A model generated the notes under the pieces. It saw nothing but the letters and a program-made list of their open reading frames with translations, was not told the DNA's origin and searched no databases. A program made the position numbers and the translations under genes. From the NCBI GenBank assembly GCA_001657395.1, contig LYSY01000005.1, forward strand, positions 186,001-250,000: 64,000 nucleotides of DNA, read 5' to 3'. Source of the stretch: Rhodospirillales bacterium BBD 1991-14. Lineage in GTDB: Bacteria > Pseudomonadota > Alphaproteobacteria > Kiloniellales > Kiloniellaceae. This document shows positions 10,974 through 40,377 of the stretch, in pieces (the stretch's first letter is position 1; each line of letters opens with the position of its first letter).

Positions 10974-11740
10974 TCGGTCGCGGAGACGGCGCGAAAGCCG
11001 GTCGCCACCAGATACATCTCGGAGGAATCCGCGCGGCTGGCCGCCGGCTTCACATGGTGGACCTTCTCGAAGTCGCGCTTCAGTTGGGCCAGCAGGTCCC
11101 GCTCGGTGCCGCCCTGGAGAACCTTGGCGACAAAGGTGCCGCCGGGGGCCAGAACCTCCTGCGCAAAGAGGTGGGCCGCCTCGACCAAGGCCATCACCTT
11201 CAGGTGGTCGGTCTTGGCGTGCCCCGTGGAGGAGGCCGCCATGTCGGACAGGACGACATCGGCCGGCCCGCCGAGAGTGGCTTTCAAACGTTCCGGCGCG
11301 TCATCATCGAGGAAGTCCCCCAGCAGCAGGTCGGCGCCGGCAACCGCCTCCACCTCCAGTAAATCGATGCCGACGATGTGCGCTGACGGGCCGCAGCGCT
11401 CCGCCGCCACCTGCAGCCATCCACCCGGCGCACAGCCAAGATCGACAATCCTGGCCCCGCTCTTCAGAAAGCGAAAGCGGTCATCCAACTGGGTCAGCTT
11501 GAAAGCGGCTCGCGAACGGTAGCCGCGCTTGCGAGCCTCGGCGACGTAGGGATCGTTCAGCTGCCGTTCGAGCCAGCGCGCGGACGAGGCTGAGCGTCGC
11601 TTGGCGGTTTTCACGCGAACCTTCAGGTTTCGACCGGAAAGACCGCGCCCGCTGTCTCTGGCGCCGGAGCCTCCCCTGCCGGCGCCCGCTCGCCCGCCCT
11701 GGCCGCGTCCGCCAGAGCGCCCACCGGAATGGCGCGCCAT
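10970..11740 (-). CDS. rlmE: 23S rRNA (uridine-2'-O)-methyltransferase RlmE (FtsJ/RrmJ)
   Basis: Methylates U2552 of 23S rRNA in the A-site loop during late 50S assembly. The 256-residue protein has the FtsJ fold with SAM motif [12 protein letters not shown]. The K-D-K-E catalytic tetrad is at Lys81, Asp166, Lys206 and Glu241, with spacing matching E. coli K38/D124/K164/E199. It carries an N-terminal extension of about 40 residues that is almost entirely Gly/Arg/Ser ([12 protein letters not shown]), probably an RNA-binding tail. It is separated from the ppx/gppA stop by 4 bp, so the two are likely cotranscribed. Confidence 0.95.
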
Positions 11741-11744
11741 ACCC

Positions 11745-12911
11745 CTATGCCCGCGACGGAGGAAGGCGCCGGCCGGAGCGGCGGTCCCGGCCGTGCATCA
11801 TGGTGTAGAGCATCCCTTCTCTCAATCCGCGGTCGGCCACCCGCAGCCGCTCGGCCGGCCAGAAGCTGCAGAGTGCGGTCAGGATGGCGCAGCCGGCCAC
11901 GACAAGGTCCGCACGTTCGGCGCCGATGCAGGCGTGATCGGCGCGCTCGCCATAGCTCATCGCCGCAATACGCCGGCAGATCCGATGCACCGTCTCCATG
12001 TCCAGATAGCTGCCGTCGACAAAGGATCGGTCGTAGCGCGGCAGATCGAAATGCACGCCGACCAGGGTGGTCACCGTGCCGGAGGTTCCCAGCATCTGGA
12101 CCTCGCCGCCGGCGACACTCGCGCCGAGGTCGTGAAGTTCGGTAAAGCCGGACATGGCTTCGCGCATGACCCCCACCATCGCATCGTAGTCGGAGGGCGT
12201 GAGGTCGCCTCCCCCGAACCGCTCGGCCATGGAGATCACACCGATCGGAATCGACGACCAGGCATAGAGGGAGAGGTCTTCACCGGTCAGTCGGTCCGGC
12301 CCCGACCCGTTTGGCCCTGCTCCATCTGGCCCTCTTCCATTTGGCCCCCTTCCATTTGGCCCCCTTCCATTTGGCTGGGCGGCCTTCAGCCAGCACACCT
12401 CTGTGCTGCCGCCACCGATGTCGAAGAGAAGAACGTCGGGAACGTGCGGGTCGATCAGCGGGGCGCAGCCGTAGATCGCCAGCTTCGCCTCTTCGTCCTG
12501 AGAGATGATTTCAAGCTCGATCCCGGTCTCGCTTCTGACCCTGGCCAGGAAGGCCTCGCAGTTGCGGGCCCGGCGGCAGGCCTCTGTGGCAACGGCGCGG
12601 ACCTGGGTGGCGCCGCGGCGGCGGATCTTGGAAGCGCAAACCTTCAGCGCATCGAGCGTGCGCGCCATCGCCTCGTCCGAGAGCCTTCCGGAGGCCGAAA
12701 GCCCCTCGCCCAGACGCACGATCCGCGAAAAGGCATCGACCACCCGAAAGCCGTCCTGCTGCGGGCGGGCGACCAGCAGGCGGCAATTGTTGGTGCCCAG
12801 ATCCAGGGCGGCATAGACGCCGTTGGGCCGCGCCGACCCGTTACGGCGCGCGGAAGCCCCTTTGCGCTTGGCCCGACCCGGCCGGCGCTGCCCGTTTCCG
12901 AAGGCTGCCAC
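11745..12911 (-). CDS. Ppx/GppA family exopolyphosphatase/pppGpp phosphatase
   Basis: A 388-residue ASKHA-fold phosphohydrolase acting on inorganic polyphosphate and/or pppGpp. Phosphate-1 motif [10 protein letters not shown] is at residues 37-46, and the glycine loop DIGGGSTEV at 164-172. It is at the short end of the family and lacks the C-terminal HD domain of long Ppx proteins. Residues 181-205 are a low-complexity insert of five NGRGP-like repeats just after the glycine loop (see the repeat entry). The N-terminus is basic and Asn/Arg-rich. Translation appears to start at a GTG (12911). Upstream of rlmE on the same strand, an arrangement common in alphaproteobacteria. Confidence 0.92.
12297..12371. 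repeat. 15-bp tandem repeat inside ppx/gppA
   Basis: About five copies of a 15-bp unit (plus-strand GGCCCCCTTCCATTT), three near-identical and two diverged. They encode (N/D)G(R/A/S)GP repeats at residues 181-205 of the phosphatase. The reading frame is kept because the unit is a multiple of three. Confidence 0.85.
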
Positions 12912-13165
12912 CTAAAAACACTGCTCCTGTTCTTTCCGGCCGAACTTTTGCCGCCAGCCGTTAACTTCTGATCTTAGCGTGAAGCCGCGGGTTTGCACCA
13001 GTCCCGACCCTCGGGTTGGGTCGACCAGACCGCAAAAAAGCTACGGAAATCAGTTGAAAAGCCCCCCTTGATGGGACTATGTAATGCCTTCGCGCGCAAA
13101 CGAGGGTTTGCGGCCCTGGCGCTTGTCCGGGCCTCTTGGTTGGACCCAAGGCAAACCACCTCTCT

Positions 13166-25976: not shown

Positions 25977-27206
25977 CTATCGCTCCGCCAGGCTGCAGTC
26001 CGTCACGCTGGCCAGCGTGGGCCAGCCGCCTCCACGCCGATGCTTGCAGCTTTCCAGCCACTGGATCGTGGTGTTGACGAGAGCGATGGTGCGTTGACGC
26101 AGGGTCTCGTCCACCATGTAGTGGTCGCGTCCGAAGTCGGCGAGCGTCACGCTTTCAGGCGCGATCAGATCGGCCAGCAGATTGAGGCCGTCATTCGGCC
26201 CGTAGGGCCTCAGGATGATGTAGGTATCGCGCACCTCGTCCGAGATGGTGCCGGTCACCGGGATGCCGATGTAGTTGACGATCAGCAGATCCTCATCCGT
26301 CCGGATCTGCTTGAACGCGGCCCGGCGTCTTTTCGTCAGCATGGAATGCATGCCGGGATCGTCGACGAAGGCGCGATACTTGGAGAGCGGGCCGTCGCCC
26401 AGGACCTCGTCCGCCAACGGCGTTCCCTGCAGGGTCCCGACAATGTTGATCCAGGCCTTGATACGCCCGGCATAGTCCGGTTCGAGCGCGGAGAGCGCCA
26501 GCGCCACCTCCGGGCTCGACTTGCTGGCACTGACCACGATCACCTTGCTGTCGGGGGCCGTGTTGCGGCGCAAGTAGTCGGCCACGACCAGCGCGTTGGT
26601 GTCGATAGAGCCGATCTCGTCGGTTCTGACCAATTGCGGCGTGAGACCGGCATCGCTCAGCGCAAGACGCGGGTCAGACAAGTCTGCGCCGGTGTTCTTG
26701 TGACTCTCGTAGTGATAGGCCGGAACGAAGACGAGCTGATAGTCCGCGGCCTGGGGCAGCAGCGTCCGCCCCTCCTCAACGGCATAGCCTTTCAGGGCCC
26801 GCGCCAGATGCACCTCGTAGGATCGGCGCAGCAGTTGATTTGCGGGCGCCCGGTTGATCAGGTCCGCAAAGTAAATGGCCGCGAAGTCGACGGAAAAGGC
26901 ATCGGCGATGCGGTTCAGGGCATCCCGGTCCGGCAGCCCCCCCTCGCCGCGCTCCGCGTAGAGGGCATCGATACGCTGGTCGAACTCGGGGCGCAGACGG
27001 GCGCCGGCCAAATAGTGCTCCATCAGATAGGCCGCTTCCTCGGAGTCGACGCCGACGGAGAAATGCTGCCCGCCCAAAACGCCGCTCGCCGGCAGGGTAT
27101 CCGGCAGCGTGGCACAGGCCCCCAGCAGGGCGAAGAGCGGCAGCAGAAATGCAAAGGCGCAGCGTGGCCGGGCGATGCGCGAGCTTTTGCTCCTTGAGCG
27201 GGTCAT
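25977..27206 (-). CDS. Alpha/beta-hydrolase-like lipoprotein
   Basis: A 409-residue predicted lipoprotein with a basic N-terminus and lipobox LLGAC (Cys31). The middle region has an alpha/beta-hydrolase-like order: YQLVFVPAYHYESHKNTGAD, then VIVVSASKSSPEVALALS where a Ser sits in a strand-turn-helix, GTLQGTPLADEV and a late FGRDHYMVDE with a possible catalytic His. The nucleophile motif is not the standard GxSxG, so activity is uncertain. It overlaps the upstream cytochrome gene by 4 nt, so it is part of the same operon and probably the same envelope complex or pathway. Confidence 0.78.
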   Translation of the reverse strand: MTRSRSKSSRIARPRCAFAFLLPLFALLGACATLPDTLPASGVLGGQHFSVGVDSEEAAYLMEHYLAGARLRPEFDQRIDALYAERGEGGLPDRDALNRIADAFSVDFAAIYFADLINRAPANQLLRRSYEVHLARALKGYAVEEGRTLLPQAADYQLVFVPAYHYESHKNTGADLSDPRLALSDAGLTPQLVRTDEIGSIDTNALVVADYLRRNTAPDSKVIVVSASKSSPEVALALSALEPDYAGRIKAWINIVGTLQGTPLADEVLGDGPLSKYRAFVDDPGMHSMLTKRRRAAFKQIRTDEDLLIVNYIGIPVTGTISDEVRDTYIILRPYGPNDGLNLLADLIAPESVTLADFGRDHYMVDETLRQRTIALVNTTIQWLESCKHRRGGGWPTLASVTDCSLAER

Positions 27207-29824
27207 TGCAGGGAGCTCCTTGGGCCGGGCTCATCGCCGTCAAGCCGTCCGTCGAGATCCCGGTCCAGCGCGCTGCGCCAGCCGTCGCCCGGGGGCACGC
27301 AGGCGAAGGTCACCGGCGCGACAGCCGCATGCGCCAGCAGGTCGTCCACCCGCCACGGCACCTCGCCCTCGCGGTCCAGCAGGAAACCCTCCGCACGCCA
27401 GAGCCATCCCCGCTCGCGCCCCTCCGCGCGTGCCCAGGCGATCAGATCGCAGTCTCCGGCGGCGGCCCGCCCGGTCATCAGGTCAAGGCGCGCCACCTGC
27501 CCGTCATCCGCCGTCCCGCTGACGGTGGTCTGCAGGCCGACCGCCGGCGCCATGCCGGTGTTGAAGGCCATGACAAAGGCGTTCAGGTCGGCACGTAGAC
27601 TGTCGCGCTCCTCCTCCGTCTTCCCGGGAATGTGAAAGACGTCCAGCTTCAGGAAGTTGATGATGGTGTCGATGCTGCCGTCGTGCACCAGGCCGAAGCC
27701 GGAGACCTGGGGGCCGGGCCGGTTGAAGCGGCCGACCTTTTGATAGACGTTGCGCAGGTGCGCGGTCTTCATATCGATTCCGGCATCGATCCCTTCGAAG
27801 TTGATGAGGCCGTTGGTGCCCAGCGGCGCGGCATGACAGTCGCGGCAGCTCAGGAGACCGCGGTCGATGTCGATACCGTCGTTGAAGATGCGAAAGCCCG
27901 CCTGCTGGCGCGAATTGTAGCTGCGGTCCGGCGCCTCGTTGGGGTTGGGCGGATAGCGGATCGTGTGCACGAAGCGGGCAAAGGCTTCCATCTCCGCCTT
28001 GTCGGGGACCTGATCCAACCCCATCAGATCCACGAAAGCCCGGTCGAAGTCCATGAAGCTCGCCAGGTTGCTGCCCGGCTGATCGCTGTCGCGCCCGAAG
28101 CGGTCGCCGCGCCAATGCAGCGGCCCGGTATCGGCGATGCCGCGCAGGCTCTGGGTCGTCATGGGGCCTTTCAGGGGATGGAACTCCTGCTGCGGGACGA
28201 AGAGCCCGTGCTCCAGAGCCTCCGGCATGGCCATCAGATCGCCCTCGGGATTGCCGAGGTCCCAGGCGAGGCCGTCGAGATCGGCGAAGACATGACAGGA
28301 GGCGCAGGACAGCGTGCCCTGGCCGGAGGTTGCCGCGGCGTCGTAGAGCAGCGGGCGCCCGGCCTTGATCACTGCGGGCGTTGGGTCGTGTTTCAAAGGA
28401 ACAGTGGCGACGACCTTGCCACCCTGCGCGTCGACGACGGAGATCGAGGCATCCAGGCGGTTGAAGACGTAAAGCCGCCGCCTCGCTGCGTCGTAGGCCA
28501 GCCCGGCCGGACCGAAGCCGACGTCGATACGGTCCAGCACCTCGGCATCGGGCGAAAGCACGGCGACCTTGCGCGACCCGAAGGCTGCCACGTAGGCCCT
28601 CTCCCCCGAGGGCTCGAAGACGATCTGCAGCGGCTGGGCGAGGCTCTTCGTGCGGAGCGCGGAAGACACCGGCATGCGCGTCGGGTTGACGTGGGGGTTC
28701 AGATCCTGCGGCAACACCTCCCAGCCGTCGCCGCTGCGCCGCAGGCGGGTGATGCGGTTCTCGGCGAAGCGGCCCTGCAGACGCGGCTCGTGGACCGTCA
28801 GGTTGGTAGCCTCGCTGTTGGAGACCCAGACCTCCTGGCGTGTTGCGTCACCCCCTTCACCGTCTCGCGGGCGCACGGCGATGTCGAAGAGCACCGTGCC
28901 GACACCGCTGATCGCCTCGGCAACCCTCGGTCGGTCGCCGGAGAGATCGATGCGGAAGACGTCGTAGTCGGGCAGATCGAAGGGCACCAGGCGCGACCAG
29001 TCGCGCCCCTCGCCGTCGACCCAGGTGTCGTTCACCTGGCGGACGATGGCGCCGGCCTTCGGCGGAGCGTCGGGCGGCGGCGGATTGTCGAAGCTGTAGA
29101 GGGGGGCCCGGCCGATGGAGGCAGCCTCGATGCCGCCGACACTGGCGGTCCTGTTGCCGGAATGGAAGATGCCGGCGTAGACCGAAAGACCGTCCGGCGA
29201 GACTGCAAGGGCGCGAGGCTTCGCACCGAAGAGGGTCAGCACCTGCGGTGGACGCTCGGGCGCTTCCGCGTCAAAGACCCAGAGATGGGCGCGGCCGGTT
29301 CCCGGCCGCAGGCTGTCGCCCCGCTTCGCCGTGGCGACGATCACCCAGCGCCGTTCCGGTCCCGCCGCGACGATGCCGCGCGGTTCGTCGCCGACATCAA
29401 GGCTGCGGATAACCCGGGGCGCAGCCGGGTCGCTGATATCCACGACGGAGACGCTGTCCGAGAGATGGTTGGATACCCAAAGCTCGCCGGCGTTGCGCAG
29501 CGTCAGCGCGATCGGGCGCAGCCCCAGGCGCGCCTCACCCACCGGCTTCAGGCCGCCGGGACCGGTCGCGAATACCTCCAGCCGGTCATCGGGCGTGTTG
29601 AGCGCATAGAGATGACCGCCGTCGCCGGACAGCGCGAGCGGGCGCAGGGGCTCGGTCTCGAAATTGGTGAATCCCGCAGAGGGCTGGGGCGCCGGAAAGT
29701 ACGGCGCGGCGCAGGCCGCCAGCAGAAGCAGCCCTGCAAACCCAGGCGCAAAGCGCCGCAGCACGGATCCCGGACCCGCGCGAAAATGACCCCGGTTCAG
29801 CAATGAAATGCGGCCCCCCTTCAT
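27203..29824 (-). CDS. Beta-propeller and diheme cytochrome c lipoprotein
   Basis: An 873-residue secreted lipoprotein (lipobox LLAAC). The N-terminal two thirds form YVTN-like beta-propeller blades (for example LYALNTPDDRLEVFATG, LWVSNHLSDSVSVVDISDPA, AYVAAFGSRKVAVLSPD, LYVFNRLDASISVVDAQGG). The C-terminal part carries two heme-binding motifs, CASCH near residue 505 and CRDCH near 660, with surroundings reminiscent of CCP/MauG-like diheme proteins (QSLRGIADTGPLHWRGDR). The ATG at 29824 is chosen for its AAGGAA ribosome-binding site; the frame extends to 29881. It heads an operon with two hydrolase-like genes. A periplasmic electron-transfer or peroxidase-like oxidase role is inferred; the substrate is unknown. 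Confidence 0.88.
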   Translation of the reverse strand: MKGGRISLLNRGHFRAGPGSVLRRFAPGFAGLLLLAACAAPYFPAPQPSAGFTNFETEPLRPLALSGDGGHLYALNTPDDRLEVFATGPGGLKPVGEARLGLRPIALTLRNAGELWVSNHLSDSVSVVDISDPAAPRVIRSLDVGDEPRGIVAAGPERRWVIVATAKRGDSLRPGTGRAHLWVFDAEAPERPPQVLTLFGAKPRALAVSPDGLSVYAGIFHSGNRTASVGGIEAASIGRAPLYSFDNPPPPDAPPKAGAIVRQVNDTWVDGEGRDWSRLVPFDLPDYDVFRIDLSGDRPRVAEAISGVGTVLFDIAVRPRDGEGGDATRQEVWVSNSEATNLTVHEPRLQGRFAENRITRLRRSGDGWEVLPQDLNPHVNPTRMPVSSALRTKSLAQPLQIVFEPSGERAYVAAFGSRKVAVLSPDAEVLDRIDVGFGPAGLAYDAARRRLYVFNRLDASISVVDAQGGKVVATVPLKHDPTPAVIKAGRPLLYDAAATSGQGTLSCASCHVFADLDGLAWDLGNPEGDLMAMPEALEHGLFVPQQEFHPLKGPMTTQSLRGIADTGPLHWRGDRFGRDSDQPGSNLASFMDFDRAFVDLMGLDQVPDKAEMEAFARFVHTIRYPPNPNEAPDRSYNSRQQAGFRIFNDGIDIDRGLLSCRDCHAAPLGTNGLINFEGIDAGIDMKTAHLRNVYQKVGRFNRPGPQVSGFGLVHDGSIDTIINFLKLDVFHIPGKTEEERDSLRADLNAFVMAFNTGMAPAVGLQTTVSGTADDGQVARLDLMTGRAAAGDCDLIAWARAEGRERGWLWRAEGFLLDREGEVPWRVDDLLAHAAVAPVTFACVPPGDGWRSALDRDLDGRLDGDEPGPRSSLQ

Positions 29825-30003
29825 TTCCTTGCCTACCGGACCTTGCCCAAAGGCTACGGTCCGACAGCACAAGAATGTCACAGGGGGAAACCCGCCTCAA
29901 CGAACCTAAAGGCGATCCGGATCACGATTGCTCGACCCCGCCCGGCCCCGATCTGGCGCCTGCCCTGGTCCAGCGCCGCACTCACCTTTGGCCGTGCGTC
30001 CGC

Positions 30004-32489: not shown

Positions 32490-33941
32490 CTACTGGACCG
32501 GCGGGATCCCCAGGCTGTCGGCGGTCTGGGCGATCTGCCGACGCTTGGCGGCATCGCTCTCGAAAGCCCGGCTGGCATCGCGCACCGCCTGCTGCGCGGC
32601 CTCGGCCTCCTGCAGCACGGCATAGGAGCGGATGAGCATCAGCCAGCCCTCCAGGTCGTTGGGCCGGCTTTCCAGCCGCGCCGCCAAGCCGTCCACCATG
32701 CCGCGCACCATCTGGTCGCGCTCTTCCTCGCTCAGGCTGGCTGCGGCGGCGACGTCCTCGTCGCTGGGGCCGCGTGCCACCCGCTGCTGCGCGAGGCCAA
32801 GCTCGGCAGCCGCCTCATCGATCTTTCCCAGGACGAAAGGCGCAGCTGCGTAATGCTCCCTGGCCGACGCCAGCGCCGCCCTGGCCTCCTCAGCCGATCC
32901 GGCTCCGGCCCGCAGGCGGGCCAGGCGGATCCAACCCTGCCAGTCCTTGGGGTCGGCCTCCAGGGCGGCCGCCAGTTCCTCGGTATCTTGGGCCGGACTG
33001 TTTGTCGAAGCCGTCTGCACCTGACCCTGGACCGGCCCCTGAACCGGCAACGCCGCCCGGGCCAGCTCCGCCTCGGTGGCGTCCGGAAGCACCGCCGCCA
33101 GATCGCGCTTGAGGAAGCGCGTCATATTGACGATGTCGCGGCGCACCAGCGGCACCCAGGGTGCACCGACCTGGGACTCGCCGAGCAGGTGTACCCAGTC
33201 GGCGAGCGCCCCTTCGAAGTCCTGGGCCTGGGCCTTGGCGAGGGCAAGGTAGTAGCGGGCGCGCGGATCGTTACCGCTCTGCACCGCCTGGGAGAAGATC
33301 AGCTTGGCCGCCAGCGGAACCTTGTTGCCGTTGGCCAGCGTCAGCGCCTCCGCATAGGCGGAGAGCACGGCGGGATCGTCGTCCGACAGCTCCGCCGCCC
33401 GGCGGTAGGCATCGGCGGCGGAGGCGTAGTCGCCGACCGCGGCGTGGGACCGCGCCAGGGTCCACCACTTCTCAAAGTTCTCGGGTTCGGTTTCGCCGCG
33501 CTCGATCATCAGCATGGCCTGGCTTTCCAGGTCACCCGAGGCCGCCTGGCGCTCCAGGATTGCCGTGCGGCGATCCGCAAGCGGCTGGTCGACGGCACCC
33601 GGTGCACCCATGGAAGCATAGAGGCCGACGGCCCCGGCGCAGGCCAGCAATCCCAGCACCGCCGCCGTCAGCGGGGCCCGCCGGGTAACGGAAATCCCAG
33701 TGTCCAACAGGCGTGCGGCGCGAAGCGCGCGGCCCTCGATCTCCTGTTCGGCGGCATCGCGCTCCGCCGCCGTGATCAAGCCGCTCTCGGCGTCGCGCTG
33801 CACCTCCTCGCGCTGATCGCGATAGATGGAGATGGCGTGCTCCGCCTCGTTGGATTCCGACTGGGCGCGATGCAGGAAGGGGCGCGTCAGCCAGAGGGCC
33901 GTCAAGGCGATCGCGATGGCTATGGCAATCCAGAGCGTCAT
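32490..33941 (-). CDS. ccmI: Cytochrome c biogenesis protein CcmI
   Basis: A 483-residue inner-membrane protein that presents apocytochrome c to the CcmF/CcmH heme lyase. N-terminal helix one (residues about 2-20) is followed by a coiled-coil/leucine-rich loop (SISIYRDQ-like AISIYRDQREEVQRDAESG) and a second helix (about 93-112). A long periplasmic TPR region follows (AMLMIERGETEPENFEKWW, AADAYRRAAELSDDDPAVL, KDWQGWIRLARLRA). It overlaps the CcmF-CcmH fusion gene by 4 nt (ATGA) and closes the regulator-ccmFH-ccmI operon. Functional analogue of NrfG in nitrite reductase maturation. Confidence 0.93.
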   Translation of the reverse strand: MTLWIAIAIAIALTALWLTRPFLHRAQSESNEAEHAISIYRDQREEVQRDAESGLITAAERDAAEQEIEGRALRAARLLDTGISVTRRAPLTAAVLGLLACAGAVGLYASMGAPGAVDQPLADRRTAILERQAASGDLESQAMLMIERGETEPENFEKWWTLARSHAAVGDYASAADAYRRAAELSDDDPAVLSAYAEALTLANGNKVPLAAKLIFSQAVQSGNDPRARYYLALAKAQAQDFEGALADWVHLLGESQVGAPWVPLVRRDIVNMTRFLKRDLAAVLPDATEAELARAALPVQGPVQGQVQTASTNSPAQDTEELAAALEADPKDWQGWIRLARLRAGAGSAEEARAALASAREHYAAAPFVLGKIDEAAAELGLAQQRVARGPSDEDVAAAASLSEEERDQMVRGMVDGLAARLESRPNDLEGWLMLIRSYAVLQEAEAAQQAVRDASRAFESDAAKRRQIAQTADSLGIPPVQ

Positions 33942-36355
33942 GGCGCGTCTCCCTGCAACAACGCGCGGGCTTGGGCCCGCTCCTCCGCTGTCAGGTCGCC
34001 GGGCCGCCGGCGCCGCCGCGTGTAGGACCGCGCCACCACAGCCGCCAGCAGAAGCAGAACGAAGGGCGCGCCCCAGAGCACCAGCGTATGGGTCTTGACC
34101 GGCGGGCGCAGCAGGACGTAGTCGCCATAACGTGCCACGACGTAATCCAGCACGGCCTGATCGTCGTCACCGGCCCGGATGCGCTCGCGCACCACGGCGC
34201 GCAGGTCGCCGGCAAGACCGGCGTTGGAGTCGAAGATCGACTGGTTCTGGCAGACCAGGCAGCGCAGTTGCTTGCCGATGCTCTGGGCGCGCGCCTCCTT
34301 GGCGGGGTCCTCGAACATCTCGCCGGGCTCGATGGCCACCGCAGGCGCGGCGCTCGCCACCAGCATAAGCGCGAGAGCTGCGGTCACGGCCGGGCGCAGG
34401 GCGCGGCGCGGCACGCCGACCCGCAGGCGGCGGTCGCTGACCGAAACCAGCGCCCCCAGGGCCATCAGCAGGGCCCCTGCCCACATCCAGGCGACACCCG
34501 GATTATAGTAGTAGCGCGTCACCCAGCCCCCGGCGCCGTCCGGATCGCCCAGCACGGCATAGAGGTCGCCGTGCCAGAGGGTCACGATGCCGGCCTCGGT
34601 GGTCGGCTGCCGTTCAACCGGATACCAGCGCCGCTCCGGAAACAGCAGCGCCACGGTCTCTCCGTCGCGGGTCACCTTCACCGTCGCGATGGAGGTCTGA
34701 TAGTTGGCCCCGCGCCCGGCGCCGACATCCAGCAGGCTGAACTCGTAGCCGGCGACCTGCTGCACGTCGCCCGGCTGCTGCACCTGGATCGACTCGCTCT
34801 GCCAGACGGAGATGGCGGCCACCCCGGCAACGGCGACAGCGACGCCCAAGTGCCCCAGGACCAAGCCCCAGGCCGAGGTCGGAAGGCCAACCAGACGCCG
34901 CAGGGCGACGCCGGGGCCGACCTTCGGCAGGCCGATGCGAACCAGGAGGTCCGCCACGGTGGCGCAGGCCAGCCAGGCGGCTAGGGCGAGGCCCAGCAGG
35001 CCGAGCGGCTCGCGCCAGCCGGCCATCGCCAGTATGACCGCAACGATAAGCGCCGCCACGAAAGCGAAGCGAAGACGCTGCAGCACCCCCTTCAGGTCGG
35101 CGCGCTTCCAACTGAGGAAGGGCCCGACGGCCGCAACGGCGGCGGTGACGCCGAAGATCGGCAGGAAGGTCTGGTTGAAGTAAGGCGCGCCGACGGTGAT
35201 CTTTTCGCCGGTCATCAGCTCCAGGAACAGCGGGTAGAGGGTGCCGATGAAGACCACGCCCGTCGCGGCGGCGAGCAGCACGTTGTTCAGCAGCAGAGCC
35301 CCTTCGCGGGACACCGGCGCGAAGTAGCCGCCGTCCTTCAGCATCGGCGCCCGCCAGGCGAAGAGCGCCAGGGCACCGCCGATGAAGAGAGCCAGCAGCC
35401 CCAGGATGAAGACGCCGCGCTCCGGATCGGTGGCGAAGGAGTGAACCGAAGAAAGAATGCCGGATCGGACCAGGAAGGTGCCGATCAGGCTGAGGGCGAA
35501 GGTGAGGATGGCCAACAGGATGGTCCACTTCTGCAGCGACTCGCGCTTCTCCACGACGATGGCCGAGTGCAGCAGCGCGGTGGCCAGCAGCCAGGGCATG
35601 AAGCTGGCGTTCTCCACCGGGTCCCAGAACCAGAAGCCGCCCCAGCCGAGCTCGTAATAGGCCCACCAGCTTCCCAGGGCGATGCCGAGGGTGAGTCCCG
35701 CCCAGGCGATCAGCACCCAGGGCCGCATCCAGCGTGCCCAGGCCGGATCGACACGCCCGCGGATCAGCGCTGCGACGGCGAAGGAAAAGGCGGTCGAGAA
35801 GCCGACATAGCCGAGATAGAGCATCGGCGGGTGAAAGGCGACGCCCGGATCCTGCAGCAGCGGGTTCATGCCCTGCCCGTCCAGCGGCGGCAGCGCCAGG
35901 CGCTCGAAGGGATTGGAGGTGAAGAGGATATAGGCGAGGAACCCGACGCCGACGGCCGCCTGCACCGCCAGCACGGTGGCGCGCATCGGCGTCGGCACCG
36001 AACGCCCGAAGACGGAGATCAGCGCCCCGAACAGCGCCAGCATGAGGACCCAGAGCAGCATGGAGCCTTCGTGGTTGGCCCAGACGCCGGTCACCTTGTA
36101 GAGCATCGGCTTGGCGGAGTGGGAGTTCATCGCCACCGTGGCGACGGAAAAGTCGGAGACCACGTAGGCATAGGTGAGGGCTGCCATGGCCACGGCGGTG
36201 GCGAGAAACTGGACCAGGGCACCGGCATCGGCAAAACGCAGCGCGCTCAGCGAGTCGTTGCGCAGGCCTGCCAGGGGCACAACGCACTGAAGCACCGCGA
36301 CCGCGAGGGCGAGACAGAGGGCAAAGTGGCCGAACTCGACGACGATGTCGGGCAT
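33938..36355 (-). CDS. ccmF: CcmF-CcmH fusion protein (heme lyase)
   Basis: An 805-residue inner-membrane protein. Residues 1 to about 650 are CcmF: many transmembrane helices, the tryptophan-rich heme-handling WWD motif GGFWFWDPVENASFMPWL at about 239-256, and the typical end SVSDRRLRVGVPRR. Without a stop the chain continues into a CcmH domain: a hydrophobic helix (about 656-674), EARAQSIGKQLRCLVCQNQS with redox pair Cys699/Cys702, RYGDYVLLRPP and a final helix. Together they ligate heme to CXXCH cysteines. CcmG, normally encoded between F and H, is absent. The start overlaps the FNR-like gene stop as TAATG. The fusion is seen directly; its functional meaning is inferred. Confidence 0.93.
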   Translation of the reverse strand: MPDIVVEFGHFALCLALAVAVLQCVVPLAGLRNDSLSALRFADAGALVQFLATAVAMAALTYAYVVSDFSVATVAMNSHSAKPMLYKVTGVWANHEGSMLLWVLMLALFGALISVFGRSVPTPMRATVLAVQAAVGVGFLAYILFTSNPFERLALPPLDGQGMNPLLQDPGVAFHPPMLYLGYVGFSTAFSFAVAALIRGRVDPAWARWMRPWVLIAWAGLTLGIALGSWWAYYELGWGGFWFWDPVENASFMPWLLATALLHSAIVVEKRESLQKWTILLAILTFALSLIGTFLVRSGILSSVHSFATDPERGVFILGLLALFIGGALALFAWRAPMLKDGGYFAPVSREGALLLNNVLLAAATGVVFIGTLYPLFLELMTGEKITVGAPYFNQTFLPIFGVTAAVAAVGPFLSWKRADLKGVLQRLRFAFVAALIVAVILAMAGWREPLGLLGLALAAWLACATVADLLVRIGLPKVGPGVALRRLVGLPTSAWGLVLGHLGVAVAVAGVAAISVWQSESIQVQQPGDVQQVAGYEFSLLDVGAGRGANYQTSIATVKVTRDGETVALLFPERRWYPVERQPTTEAGIVTLWHGDLYAVLGDPDGAGGWVTRYYYNPGVAWMWAGALLMALGALVSVSDRRLRVGVPRRALRPAVTAALALMLVASAAPAVAIEPGEMFEDPAKEARAQSIGKQLRCLVCQNQSIFDSNAGLAGDLRAVVRERIRAGDDDQAVLDYVVARYGDYVLLRPPVKTHTLVLWGAPFVLLLLAAVVARSYTRRRRRPGDLTAEERAQARALLQGDAP

Positions 36356-37188
36356 TAGCGATGAACCTCCATCTCCTGAAGCGCCGCCCCGGACGCGTTT
36401 TGCGCAGCCGTTTTGTCGGCGCTGTGGGGTGCCAGGATCGGCGCGCGGTTCTGCAGCCCGGCGAGATCGCGCACGACGTACTCCGTAGGTGAGTGGAAGT
36501 CAGCCAGACGGGCCTTTTTCACGCGGCTGAAGATGCGGCTGACGGTTTCGGCATTGAGGCCCAGGTAGTCGGCGATGTCTTCGCGCGCCAAAGGCAGGCG
36601 CACGCGCCAGCCCTGGGCCGAATGCTCACCGACGCGCCAGGCCATGTCGGCGAGAAAGAGGCAGACCCGCTCCATGCCGTCGAGCCGGCCGAGGGTGACG
36701 AGGTGGGCATAGATGCAGCGCGCCTGGTCCCGTGCGGCACGGAACAGCGCCGCGCTCAGGCTGGCATTGCCGGCGATGGTGCCGGCGTGACCGGAGAGAT
36801 CGAGCTCGCAGAGGTGGCTGGGCGCCAGCGCCTCGATCCAGAAATTCAGGCTCTCGTCTTCGTCGGGCGGGCAGAAGCGGTCACCCCGGGTTGCCAGGCA
36901 GACGATCTGGCGGCGCCCGTCGGCCAGCGCGGTGCAAAGCGCAACCGTGCCGCTGAGTACGGTCCACAGCCTCACGCCGGTCCCGGACTCCAGACGCTCC
37001 CCGCGCGCCATGCTGCGCAGACGGGGGACCGGCGGGCCGCCGCCCAGCTGACCGCAGACCCCGTTGACGCAGCCGCGAGAGGGTTCGGCAGCCTTGCAGC
37101 CGATCCTTTCACCGGGGCCGCCTGTTCCTGGACCCCCTGCCCCCGGATCGGTCTCCTGATAACTGTCACCCCAGAGACAGCAATCCAT
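36355..37188 (-). CDS. CRP/FNR-family transcriptional regulator
   Basis: A 277-residue regulator with a cyclic-nucleotide-binding-like beta roll (about 60-135), a dimerisation helix and a C-terminal HTH (about 195-230). The recognition helix NAETVSRIFSRV has the Glu/Ser/Arg pattern of FNR, which reads TTGAT half-sites. The N-terminus is Cys-rich: Cys3, Cys4, Cys31, Cys40, Cys45, with further Cys at 85, 97, 106 and 127. The spacing differs from E. coli FNR (C20-C23-C29...C122), so an oxygen-sensing Fe-S cluster is plausible but not assured. Cotranscribed with ccmFH-ccmI and divergent from the dodecaheme cytochrome, whose upstream region holds a matching box. Confidence 0.9.
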   Translation of the reverse strand: MDCCLWGDSYQETDPGAGGPGTGGPGERIGCKAAEPSRGCVNGVCGQLGGGPPVPRLRSMARGERLESGTGVRLWTVLSGTVALCTALADGRRQIVCLATRGDRFCPPDEDESLNFWIEALAPSHLCELDLSGHAGTIAGNASLSAALFRAARDQARCIYAHLVTLGRLDGMERVCLFLADMAWRVGEHSAQGWRVRLPLAREDIADYLGLNAETVSRIFSRVKKARLADFHSPTEYVVRDLAGLQNRAPILAPHSADKTAAQNASGAALQEMEVHR

Positions 37189-37269: not shown

Positions 37270-37283
37270 TTGAGGTGGATCAA
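37270..37283. promoter_or_regulatory. FNR/ANR-type box
   Basis: TTGAG-GTGG-ATCAA matches the FNR consensus TTGAT-N4-ATCAA at nine of ten defined positions with correct spacing. It lies in the 300-bp divergent region (37189-37488) between the FNR-like regulator and the dodecaheme cytochrome gene, 82 bp from the regulator start and 205 bp from the cytochrome start. It could control either or both. The rest of the interval holds no gene that I can support. Confidence 0.65.
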
Positions 37284-37488: not shown

Positions 37489-39846
37489 ATGAGATCGGCC
37501 CTTTTCGCCTTTGTGACGCTCTGCTTCGGAACTGCGGCTTTCGCGACCGGCGCTGCCGCCCAGACATCCGTCGATGCGCAGCTTGCCGCCGAGAAGGGCT
37601 GCCTCGCCTGCCACGACGGCATCGAGAAGTTCACCGACGGCCTGATGATTGAGCAGATCGAAGCCATGGGCGCCGATTTCAACGATCCCGCCGGCTGCGT
37701 GGTCTGTCACGGCGGCACGCCGGGCGCCACCACGGCGCAAGAGGCACACCAGGGCAGCCCCAGCGACCTCGTCGAGGCCGGAGGCCCGCACGTCTTCTAT
37801 CCCGACCCCGGCGCCATCACCGTCGCCGACAAGGCCTGCGGCCAGTGCCACGACGGCTACGCCAGCCGGCTGGCCAAGTCCCTCATGAACACCGAAGCAG
37901 GCAAGCTGCAGGGCAACCTCTGGTCCTGGGGCCTGCAGAGCGACCACAAGGTGGTCTGGGGCAACTACGACCTCGTCGACGAGGACGGGCCGGAGCCCGC
38001 CGTCGGCACCGAGGCCTACATCGAATACATGACCGCCTATGTCGCGGCCCATCCCGACCAGATGCCCTCGGAGATGAAGCAGATCCCGGCGGTCGACGTG
38101 AACCTGATCGCCGAGAATCCCAACATGGCCGGCATCACCTATTCCCGCCAGCAGTGCCAGCGCTGCCACGTCGGCGTGAACGGGCGCGAGAAGCGCGGCG
38201 ACTTCCGCGGCGCCGGCTGTTCGTCCTGCCACGTGCCCTATTCCAACGATGGCTTCTACGAGGGCGGCGACCCGACCATCGCCAAGGACCAGCCGGGCAA
38301 GCTGCTGCTGCACCGCATGCAGGGCTCGCGCAAGTCCAAGGTGCAGATCGGCGATCTCACCTACTCCGGCATCCCGACGGAAACCTGCAACTCCTGCCAC
38401 AACCGCGGCAAGCGCATCGGCGTGAGCTACCAGGGCATCATGGAGTTCCCCTACGGCTCGCCCTACACCGCCAGCGGCGGCAAGCAGCCCAAGCTGCACA
38501 CCAAGAACTATCTCTTCATCAAGGACGACCTGCATCACCAGGTGCAGTCGCGCCCGGGCAATCCGGAGGGCGGCATGCTCTGCCAGGACTGCCACACCAC
38601 CGTCGACATGCACGGCGACGGCAACCTGCCGGGCACCACCCTGGCGCAGGTGGAGATCGAGTGCGAGGACTGCCACGGCACGGTCTCCAAGTTCCCCTGG
38701 GAGCTGCCGCTGGGTCACGGCGAGGAGCACGCCCAGGACATCGGCGACACGCCGCGCGGCCTGGCCGACGACATCACGCCGGAGCAGTACTTCGCCGAGG
38801 TCTATGACGCCGAGGACGGCTACCTGCTGACCGCGCGCGGCAATCCCTACGGCAACGTGGTACGGCGCGGCGACAAGGTGATCATGCACTCCGCCTCCGG
38901 CCTCGACTTTGAGGTGCCGGTGCTGAAGCAGATCGCCCTCGACGGAACCTGGAAGAGCCAGAGCGCCGAGGTCGCCATGGGCGCCGTCGGCCAGCACATG
39001 GAATCGATGGAGTGCTACGCCTGCCACGCCGACTGGGCGCCGCAGTGCTACGGCTGCCACATCACCGTCGACTACTCGGAAGGCAAGACCGACATCGACT
39101 GGATCAACAACGCCAATGCCCGCGGCGAGGACGGCCTAACCGCCGACGCACCGCTCGGCACCAACGGCCTGACCTCCGCCGGCAAGGTCTCGGAGACCCG
39201 CTCCTACCTGCGCTGGGAAGAGCCGACCCTGGGCATCAACGGCGAAGGCCGCGTCTCGCCCCTCATGCCCGGCTGCCAGGTGATCACCACGGTCATCGAC
39301 AAGGACGGCAACACCATCGTCCAGAACGAGACCTGGATGACGCCGGATGCCGGGGGCACCAAGGGCCTGGACCATGCCGCCGTGCAGCCGCACACCGCCG
39401 GGCGCCAGGCGCGCACCTGCGAGAGCTGCCATGACAACCCGAAGGCCCTGGGCTACGGCATCTCCGGCGGGCGCTTCATGAAGGGCTACGAGGACGGCTT
39501 CACCGTGGACCTGGAGACCGCGCAGGGCCAGATCATCCCGCGCCAGACCCAGCTCCAGTCGCAGCCGATCCCCAGCCTCGACCACGACCTCAGCCAGATC
39601 GTGACGCGCGAGGGCGAGCAGTTGGTCACCGTCGGTTCCCACTGGCCGCTGACCGGGCCGCTGCCCCAGGCCATGCGCGAGAAGATGGAGCGCACCGGCC
39701 TCTGCATGGGCTGCCACCAGAACATGGTGAACGAGGATCTCTGGTCGCAGGTGAACTCGCCGAAGTTCGTCAACAACGCCGAGCACCAGGCGGTGATGAA
39801 CCAGGCCATCCACGCCCTCGCCAAGGAAAAGAGCGACGGCAACTGA
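37489..39846 (+). CDS. Periplasmic dodecaheme (12 x CXXCH) cytochrome c
   Basis: A 785-residue exported cytochrome. A Sec signal (cleavage near AAAQ, residue 25) is followed by twelve heme motifs at residues 38, 70, 117, 223, 244, 300, 365, 392, 509, 520, 644 and 739. All are canonical CXXCH; there is no CXXCK or long-spaced motif. A single extra Cys (596) lies in the long heme-free stretch 525-643. Many lone His residues could be distal ligands. It does not look like octaheme tetrathionate reductase, hydroxylamine oxidoreductase or MccA from its motif layout, and I cannot name a family. The true start is ATG 37489 with GGGAGA upstream; the frame extends to 37270 without support. Likely an anaerobic electron-transfer or reductase protein. 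Confidence 0.92.
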   Translation: MRSALFAFVTLCFGTAAFATGAAAQTSVDAQLAAEKGCLACHDGIEKFTDGLMIEQIEAMGADFNDPAGCVVCHGGTPGATTAQEAHQGSPSDLVEAGGPHVFYPDPGAITVADKACGQCHDGYASRLAKSLMNTEAGKLQGNLWSWGLQSDHKVVWGNYDLVDEDGPEPAVGTEAYIEYMTAYVAAHPDQMPSEMKQIPAVDVNLIAENPNMAGITYSRQQCQRCHVGVNGREKRGDFRGAGCSSCHVPYSNDGFYEGGDPTIAKDQPGKLLLHRMQGSRKSKVQIGDLTYSGIPTETCNSCHNRGKRIGVSYQGIMEFPYGSPYTASGGKQPKLHTKNYLFIKDDLHHQVQSRPGNPEGGMLCQDCHTTVDMHGDGNLPGTTLAQVEIECEDCHGTVSKFPWELPLGHGEEHAQDIGDTPRGLADDITPEQYFAEVYDAEDGYLLTARGNPYGNVVRRGDKVIMHSASGLDFEVPVLKQIALDGTWKSQSAEVAMGAVGQHMESMECYACHADWAPQCYGCHITVDYSEGKTDIDWINNANARGEDGLTADAPLGTNGLTSAGKVSETRSYLRWEEPTLGINGEGRVSPLMPGCQVITTVIDKDGNTIVQNETWMTPDAGGTKGLDHAAVQPHTAGRQARTCESCHDNPKALGYGISGGRFMKGYEDGFTVDLETAQGQIIPRQTQLQSQPIPSLDHDLSQIVTREGEQLVTVGSHWPLTGPLPQAMREKMERTGLCMGCHQNMVNEDLWSQVNSPKFVNNAEHQAVMNQAIHALAKEKSDGN

Positions 39847-39990: not shown

Positions 39991-40377
39991 ATGCGCCCAA
40001 TCATCCTCCGGCCAGTCATCCTCGCCACCGCGCTCATCGGCTTTGCCGCGGTCGCAGCGACGGCCGGCATTCCGGCCGGCCCGGCCGCCGCCCAGGCCTA
40101 CAGCGCCCACGACCTTCTGAGCGCCTGCACCGTCGCCGACAACGATTCCCGCGACGGCTTCGTCGCCGAGCTGGAATGCGAGCAGTACATGATGGGCTTC
40201 GTTCACGCCCTCGCCGAGACCGGCGACACCACCATCTGCCCGCCGCCCCGCAACACCGCCGACGAAATCCGCTGGGCCTACATGCGCTGGGTCCACCAGG
40301 ACTACAGCGCCCGCAAGGATCTCAGCGCCGGCAAGGCGGTGATGGGCACGCTGAGCGATAACTTCAAATGTCAGTGA
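39991..40377 (+). CDS. Rap1a/Tai-like small secreted protein
   Basis: A 128-residue exported protein with a Sec signal (about 1-36, ending AAAQA). The mature domain has the Rap1a/Tai-type layout: AHDLLSACTVAD, LECEQYMMGFVHALAE, ICPPPRNTADEIRWAYMRWV and a C-terminal FKCQ, with four Cys that would form two disulfides. This fold is known from immunity proteins of type VI amidase effectors, but it is also widespread as a housekeeping periplasmic domain. GGGAGG precedes the ATG. It lies 144 bp after the dodecaheme gene on the same strand, so it may be a companion of that cytochrome. Confidence 0.83.
   Translation: MRPIILRPVILATALIGFAAVAATAGIPAGPAAAQAYSAHDLLSACTVADNDSRDGFVAELECEQYMMGFVHALAETGDTTICPPPRNTADEIRWAYMRWVHQDYSARKDLSAGKAVMGTLSDNFKCQ

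Follow-up and report, generated by a model that had tools for sequence, protein, structure and literature searches.

The dodecaheme cytochrome gene and its surroundings

The stretch of DNA analyzed here (the window; 64,000 nucleotides of contig LYSY01000005.1 from Rhodospirillales bacterium BBD 1991-14) contains, at 37489..39846 on the plus strand, a gene for a dodecaheme c-type cytochrome that translates from its ATG into 785 amino acids. The N-terminus of the protein, judged by eye, is a plausible signal peptide, and the third-position GC of the gene (0.91) supports the reading frame. Twelve CXXCH motifs, compared with about 0.03 expected from composition alone, start at residues 38, 70, 117, 223, 244, 300, 365, 392, 509, 520, 644 and 739. 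The first-pass annotation had described twelve canonical motifs in an uneven layout, with eight hemes in residues 38-396, a pair at 509/520 that is 11 residues apart and isolated motifs at 644 and 739; re-translation returned the same residue positions and a recount agrees with this layout. The heme-free stretch with a lone cysteine to which it had drawn attention spans residues 525-643, and this residue, Cys596, is indeed the sole non-heme cysteine of the mature protein, the only other non-motif cysteine (Cys12) being located inside the signal peptide. The genome (5.51 Mb, 21 contigs) contains a single match to the dodecaheme cytochrome.

The divergent gene at 36355..37188 (minus strand) encodes a Crp/Fnr-type regulator with an N-terminal cysteine cluster (PF13545, PF00325; similarity to FixK/FnrL is below the cut-offs), and an Fnr-box-like site with one mismatch, TTGAGGTGGATCAA, is located upstream of the cytochrome gene at 37270..37283 on the plus strand. 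The window contains 5 Fnr-like matches compared with 1.97 expected, and 6 of 100 shuffles reach 5, so the box is weak on its own and only conservation among relatives counts. A site with at most one mismatch is found upstream of the gene in 26 of 79 relatives, compared with 13 of 1580 shuffled stretches, in a count that includes truncated genes and one locus (L025) read at the wrong stretch, and with shuffles that preserve base content only. Such boxes are frequent among the alphaproteobacterial genes. Neighborhoods were compared across 81 loci (the window counted) by clustering of rough gene calls, with some of the neighbors scanned, one member per family, and the rest assigned by clustering. 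In 33 of these loci, a minus-strand gene of the Crp/Fnr cluster is no more than two genes upstream of the cytochrome gene; CcmF is found within the locus in 38, and a TPR protein is encoded next to the cytochrome in 16, all Chloroflexota by record title. In 39 loci the next gene on the same strand encodes a Rap1a-domain protein, which in the window is small and has a signal-like N-terminus (39991..40377, plus strand; PF18602, 49.7 bits compared with a cut-off of 27.7). The Rap1a domain is an immunity-protein family; here its role might be that of a chaperone or partner for the cytochrome. In L040, the second gene downstream of the cytochrome, following that for the Rap1a protein, is Porin_5-like (11729-12919) and has a homolog at the same place in L053, and in Anaerolineales HSG25 (L072:2067-8713) genes for 7-, 8-, 13- and 7-heme cytochromes directly precede the dodecaheme gene. 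Farther away in the window, an 892-amino-acid beta-propeller protein (27203-29881, minus strand) shows weak similarity of the hydrazine synthase beta type, with a score far short of the cut-off.

Genes for cytochrome maturation are also present, namely a fused CcmF-CcmH heme lyase in one 805-amino-acid frame (33938..36355, minus strand; TIGR00353, 638 bits, above the cut-off, with an NrfF-like C-terminus below the cut-off) and, in the same maturation set, a CcmI-type TPR protein (32490..33941, minus strand; TIGR03142, 68.2 bits compared with 29.3). The fusion is the second CcmF of the genome, contig 15 encoding a separate CcmF (58% identical) and a CcmH-like frame, and by analogy with NrfEFG it may be the heme lyase for the dodecaheme protein. 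A strict coupling between the fusion and the cytochrome, examined in 58 genomes including the window's own, does not hold. Copies of the fusion at 79-97% identity accompany the cytochrome in G000, G001, G046 and G003 (where the copy is split between two contigs), and G008 combines the cytochrome with a copy at 63-64%; several genomes, e.g., G023, G026, G035 and G053, possess the cytochrome without the fusion, and in two genomes without the cytochrome, G036 and G044, CcmF and CcmH matches (about 50-59%) share one open frame of 883 and 909 amino acids, respectively. Thus, the link applies to some lineages only, and the fusion cannot serve as a marker of the cytochrome; given its presence in G036 and G044, the fusion arose or spread apart from the cytochrome.

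Relationship to ExtM and phyletic distribution

The Pfam matches above the cut-offs are generic heme-motif families and MtrC/MtrF domain II/IV (39 bits, cut-off 30), and the top NCBIfam match is ExtM (NF040943; 235.6 bits, E 9e-70), at a score well under the equivalog cut-off of 800. The first-pass annotation had called the protein a cytochrome of unassigned family and had proposed a profile search; the label holds in that the protein misses the cut-off of every specific multiheme family, but the homology to ExtM had been overlooked. The poor fit to the named families that it had reported is borne out. NrfA, HAO, MccA, MtrC/OmcA and DmsE are multiheme c-type cytochromes like the window protein, but the profile matches to NrfA, HAO, MtrC/OmcA and DmsE are sub-threshold or none: the NrfA and HAO families are absent from the Pfam and NCBIfam match lists up to E 1, and the OmcA/MtrC decaheme family (TIGR03507) reaches 17.9 bits against a cut-off of 209.3. 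The octaheme tetrathionate reductase family (TIGR04315), which has an active-site cysteine, was likewise rejected (13.3 bits, with 375 required; twelve hemes in the window protein rather than eight).

ExtM (GSU2935 of Geobacter sulfurreducens) resembles the window protein in having twelve CXXCH motifs with the same order and pair spacings, and a PGCQ motif. In a sample of 247 genomes from the Desulfosediminicola phylum, the ExtM profile has some match in 102 and a match above the cut-off in 6. These six genes (L106-L111) encode twelve motifs in the order seen in the window protein, share with it pair spacings of 21, 27 and 11 residues, all contain PGCQ between hemes 10 and 11, and are 26-28% identical to it over 79-83% of the query (BLASTP, E 2e-51 to 4e-58). 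The differences are that the window protein has 785 amino acids and the ExtM profile 599 positions, that in the alignment Met53 and His375 of the window protein correspond to His52 and Met375 of ExtM, and that His337, His350, His467, His718 and His766 are unconserved in ExtM. Moreover, a cluster of the extHIJKLMNOPQS type with the ExtI porin and ExtKL is absent around the window gene. Given the ExtM-like order and spacing of the motifs combined with a score below 800, the window protein is, judging from these alignments, a homolog of ExtM outside the ExtM equivalog; it displays the long homology and the Cys/Sec-Gln motif between hemes 10 and 11 that define a broad ExtM superfamily. The Geobacter ExtM is annotated as a 12-heme, 68.3 kDa protein of the extHIJKLMNOPQS cluster, and the available part of that report describes no test of the role of ExtM itself in this (selenite/tellurite) cluster (PMC5877670). 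We found no biochemistry of any clade member in the literature, and among the papers listed for dodecaheme or multiheme cytochromes of Roseobacter-type bacteria nothing on the window protein came up.

A scan of GTDB contigs returned 145 stretches encoding relatives, and the analysis continued with the best 80 of these. Among the 80, identity to the window protein (taxa as given in the record titles) is 72-99% in alphaproteobacteria, 63-79% in gammaproteobacteria, 54-59% in Chloroflexota, 57% in one planctomycete, 54% in Desulfosediminicola and 53% in an unclassified bacterium. Three contigs from metagenome-assembled genomes (MAGs), labeled Chromatiales, Dehalococcoidia and Thermus/Deinococcus group (L036, L037 and L044), encode genes 69-79% identical to that of the window, in L037 with Crp/Fnr and Rap1a neighbors; these labels look doubtful, the alternatives being misbinning and recent transfer. 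Within the order of the window, 13 of 58 genomes (its own included) have a match, which is weak in one case (G028) and strong in 12, some of these being truncated at contig ends; the distribution is patchy. In a tree of 58 tips, the window protein belongs to a clade of 18 tips (support 0.92), separate from the ExtM clade (6 tips, support 1.0) and from a clade of proteins with either a predicted selenocysteine (Sec) or cysteine at the position of Cys596 (17 tips, 16 distinct genes, support 1.0). The genes with an in-frame UGA and the window protein are thus on different branches.

Cys596, in-frame UGA codons and candidate heme ligands

Cys596 (codon at 39274..39276, plus strand) is located in the PGCQ motif and is as invariant as the heme cysteines, being present in all 74 aligned clade members (the window counted); the alignment leaves aside 7 of the 80 loci, which are short or split (L025, L039, L041, L050, L052, L054 and L055), and PGCQ is still present in all seven. 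Eleven near-relative loci from the window's order, some of which repeat the same species, also contain PGCQ. In a wider alignment of 40 rows, 37 of the 38 rows with a residue at this position have Cys or UGA, the sole exception being the nine-heme protein of L104; the motif is mostly PGCQ or PGUQ, with PCQ in L119-L122 and TGCQ in L130. The suggestion in the first-pass annotation that the insert with the free cysteine matters thus gains weight, both from the invariance of Cys596 and from UGA at the equivalent codon in 13 relatives from Desulfobacterota.

These 13 genes are the matches to the ExtM profile with an internal stop among the matches listed for the 247 genomes; each has a single TGA, and neither TAG nor TAA was flagged inside a frame among these matches. 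In all 13 fetched genes, the TGA is located exactly at the position of Cys596 (PG-UGA-Q) and the frame remains open and conserved beyond it, the pattern of an in-frame UGA at a cysteine-conserved site that is expected of selenoprotein genes. Further TGAs after the last heme in L139, L142 and L147 look like the genes' own stops. Cysteine versions with PGCQD are encoded in L148, L151 and L152; of these, L148 (the G126 gene, which also stands as L128) branches from within the Sec genes in the tree, with supports of 0.94-0.98. The machinery for Sec insertion is present in the genomes concerned: SelB is above the cut-off in all 16 Desulfobacterota genomes (13 with the Sec form and 3 with the cysteine form), compared with 2 of 14 control genomes, and the window's own genome is below it (121.6 against 242.25). 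A tRNA-Sec of at least 70 bits is present in 15 of the 16, with only 50.1 in G265; passing the gathering score is not informative by itself, because the genome of the window reaches 48.6 bits, just above this score and no better than chance-level matches in controls, 5 of 14 of which pass.

A SECIS-like hairpin starts 13-18 nucleotides past the UGA, 13 being the lower bound of the search. Its mean z is -2.48 for 12 related Sec genes, compared with -0.21 for 51 Cys-Gln sites from genes of the same kind, some homologous and some within heme motifs (rank test, p 1.4e-5); the ranges overlap, with z above -1.5 in 4 of the 12 UGA genes and below -1.5 at six Cys sites. L145 is outside this count, the filter having required two hemes after the site. 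Two cysteine-encoding relatives, L153 and L155, retain a hairpin immediately downstream of the Cys codon (z -4.8 and -2.0, respectively), perhaps a SECIS relic after a change from Sec to Cys.

ExtKL of Geobacter, a predicted selenoprotein cytochrome (PMC1914089), resembles this group as a multiheme cytochrome with a (predicted) selenocysteine but has five hemes, with the UGA after all five in SIPDGUP (L149), whereas the window protein has Cys. The Sec-containing cytochromes named in the available part of a 2026 selenoproteome review are ExtKL and an octaheme tetrathionate reductase, the latter representing a multiheme reductase family with a listed Sec form (PMC13188914). In searches of openly accessible article texts, a Sec-containing ExtM-type cytochrome did not come up.

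In the region from heme 10 to heme 11, DSSP on the AlphaFold2 model predicts a beta domain (residues 562-631; 39172..39381, plus strand), with Cys596 in one of its strands. The full-length model (57 sequences) has a mean pLDDT of 73.7 and a pTM of 0.75; a domain model of residues 400-760 was worse (pLDDT 65.3, pTM 0.48). Neither Foldseek (E <= 0.001) nor VIA-align (Z 2) matched the full-length model to a solved structure, and phmmer found no sequence match in the PDB. The conserved non-motif histidines in the 74 rows are 87, 275, 337, 349, 350, 375, 467, 503, 635, 718 and 766 (His467 in 72 and His766 in 73), Met53 and Met133 are conserved in the clade, with His at or beside the same position in some sister clades, and position 629 is His in 47 rows and Met in 25. 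Heme 1 is CX4CH in 5 rows and heme 3 in 9, the other ten hemes being CXXCH throughout. These 11 histidines, the two methionines and position 629 make 14 candidate sixth ligands for 12 hemes, so the ligand counts are compatible with both the presence and the absence of an open heme, and the ligand-free catalytic heme that had been envisaged gains no support from them.

Possible functions of the dodecaheme cytochromes

Exchange between Cys and Sec is expected of reactive residues in selenoprotein families, and the Cys/UGA exchange at this position is the strongest clue that Cys596 is probably reactive rather than structural. Quinol-side modules of four types are found in 7 of the 81 loci, none of them alphaproteobacterial: FeS and NrfD homologs in L059, L080 and L081 (the arrangement in L059 suggests an alternative-complex-III-like set), cytochrome b and Rieske proteins in L066 and L075, and a NapC/TorC-type protein in the gammaproteobacterial L048 and L049. 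Rieske and cytochrome b genes are also located directly upstream in 5 of the 13 Sec loci (L135-L137, which are close kin, L139 and L140), and this pair resembles the one in the ExtM-bearing locus L149. The ext cluster of Geobacter likewise holds Rieske and cytochrome b genes, and the pair upstream of the UGA-bearing genes parallels ExtO/ExtP.

Taken together, the Cys/Sec exchange, the recurrent quinol modules and the Fnr-type control best support a periplasmic reductase with a Cys/Sec site near a heme. We tentatively favor, as a reading that falls just short of an even call, a quinol-fed periplasmic dodecaheme reductase of the ExtM superfamily with Cys596 (Sec in one branch of Desulfobacterota) in the active site; from the gene sequences and neighborhoods, we infer the periplasmic location, Sec insertion, catalysis and the direction of electron flow. 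Electrons from the quinol pool would enter the heme chain via NapC/TorC, FeS-NrfD, an alternative-complex-III-like set or Rieske-cytochrome b, depending on the lineage, and would pass to an active site of which the invariant PGCQ cysteine, Cys596, is a part. This residue, putatively replaced by selenocysteine in the one Desulfobacterota branch, would act, close to a heme, as a redox-active or nucleophilic group, and in alphaproteobacteria the Fnr-type regulator probably induces the cytochrome at low oxygen. As for the substrate, our guess, made because of the link to ext and the known chemistry of Cys and Sec, is a sulfur or selenium/tellurium species (an oxyanion, polysulfide or disulfide).

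Among the alternatives, the one that fares best, and that we nevertheless regard as unlikely, is that the protein is a pure electron conduit, a twelve-heme wire from a quinol dehydrogenase to other carriers, perhaps at the outer membrane, in which Cys596 is an axial ligand or a tuning residue. The conserved His and Met residues suffice to ligate every heme, and porin-like genes are located near the cytochrome in L040 and L053. The cluster of ExtM itself also encodes a porin and further cytochromes (PMC5877670), wiring of this kind is discussed for the ext-cluster cytochromes, and the available part of a study of cable bacteria places their ExtM homologs in neither the catalytic nor the electron-transfer-only group (PMC11976967). 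However, among the neighboring genes clustered and scanned, a porin or outer-membrane cytochrome is not a common neighbor in this clade. Replacement of Cys by Sec is, furthermore, unusual where the residue is passive, which argues against a mere wire.

The opposite direction of electron flow, from a reduced periplasmic (sulfur) compound to quinone or cytochrome c, comparable to thiosulfate dehydrogenase with its His/Cys heme and to Qrc-type quinone reductase, appears rather improbable. It would be in line with the presence of Thiotrichales and a lucinid-symbiont MAG (by record titles) among the hosts, with the occurrence of COX1 in 5 of the 81 loci and of a QrcA-like 5-heme protein in 4, all from Chloroflexota, and with neighbors in L080 that score as DsrP (above the cut-off) and DsrO/QrcC (below it), but both the Fnr-type control in alphaproteobacteria and the NapC/TorC-type partners in the two gammaproteobacterial loci suit reduction better. 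Because quinol modules can also run in other contexts and COX1 is present in the five Chloroflexota loci, the reductive direction favored above is tentative. The weakest alternative, that Cys596 is kept for folding or assembly (an inter-subunit disulfide, for which a lone free cysteine could pair with a cysteine-bearing partner such as the Rap1a-domain protein, or a metal site) and that the UGA genes are pseudogenes or cases of odd readthrough, is very improbable given the 13 frames open and conserved past the UGA without a TAG or TAA among the matches listed, the presence of SelB and the hairpin after the UGA.

The reductase reading has a broader version, which we consider possible but doubtful: the dodecaheme cytochromes might constitute a new class of quinol-linked multiheme oxidoreductases, present in several phyla, in which a heme and a Cys/Sec-exchangeable residue, possibly as an axial Cys/Sec-heme ligand, form the active site, under Fnr-type control in alphaproteobacteria, for respiration of a sulfur, selenium or tellurium compound. 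Many multiheme cytochromes have no assigned function, and in such proteins it is difficult to tell which residues are active. The dodecaheme clade is widespread, with members by record title in Alpha- and Gammaproteobacteria, Chloroflexota, a planctomycete and Desulfobacterota, yet unstudied. Here, a lone cysteine is fixed across phyla and apparently swapped for Sec in a sister branch, such that evolution itself seems to point out the active residue. The Cys/Sec site would reduce the question of function to a single residue, for ExtM of Geobacter as well.
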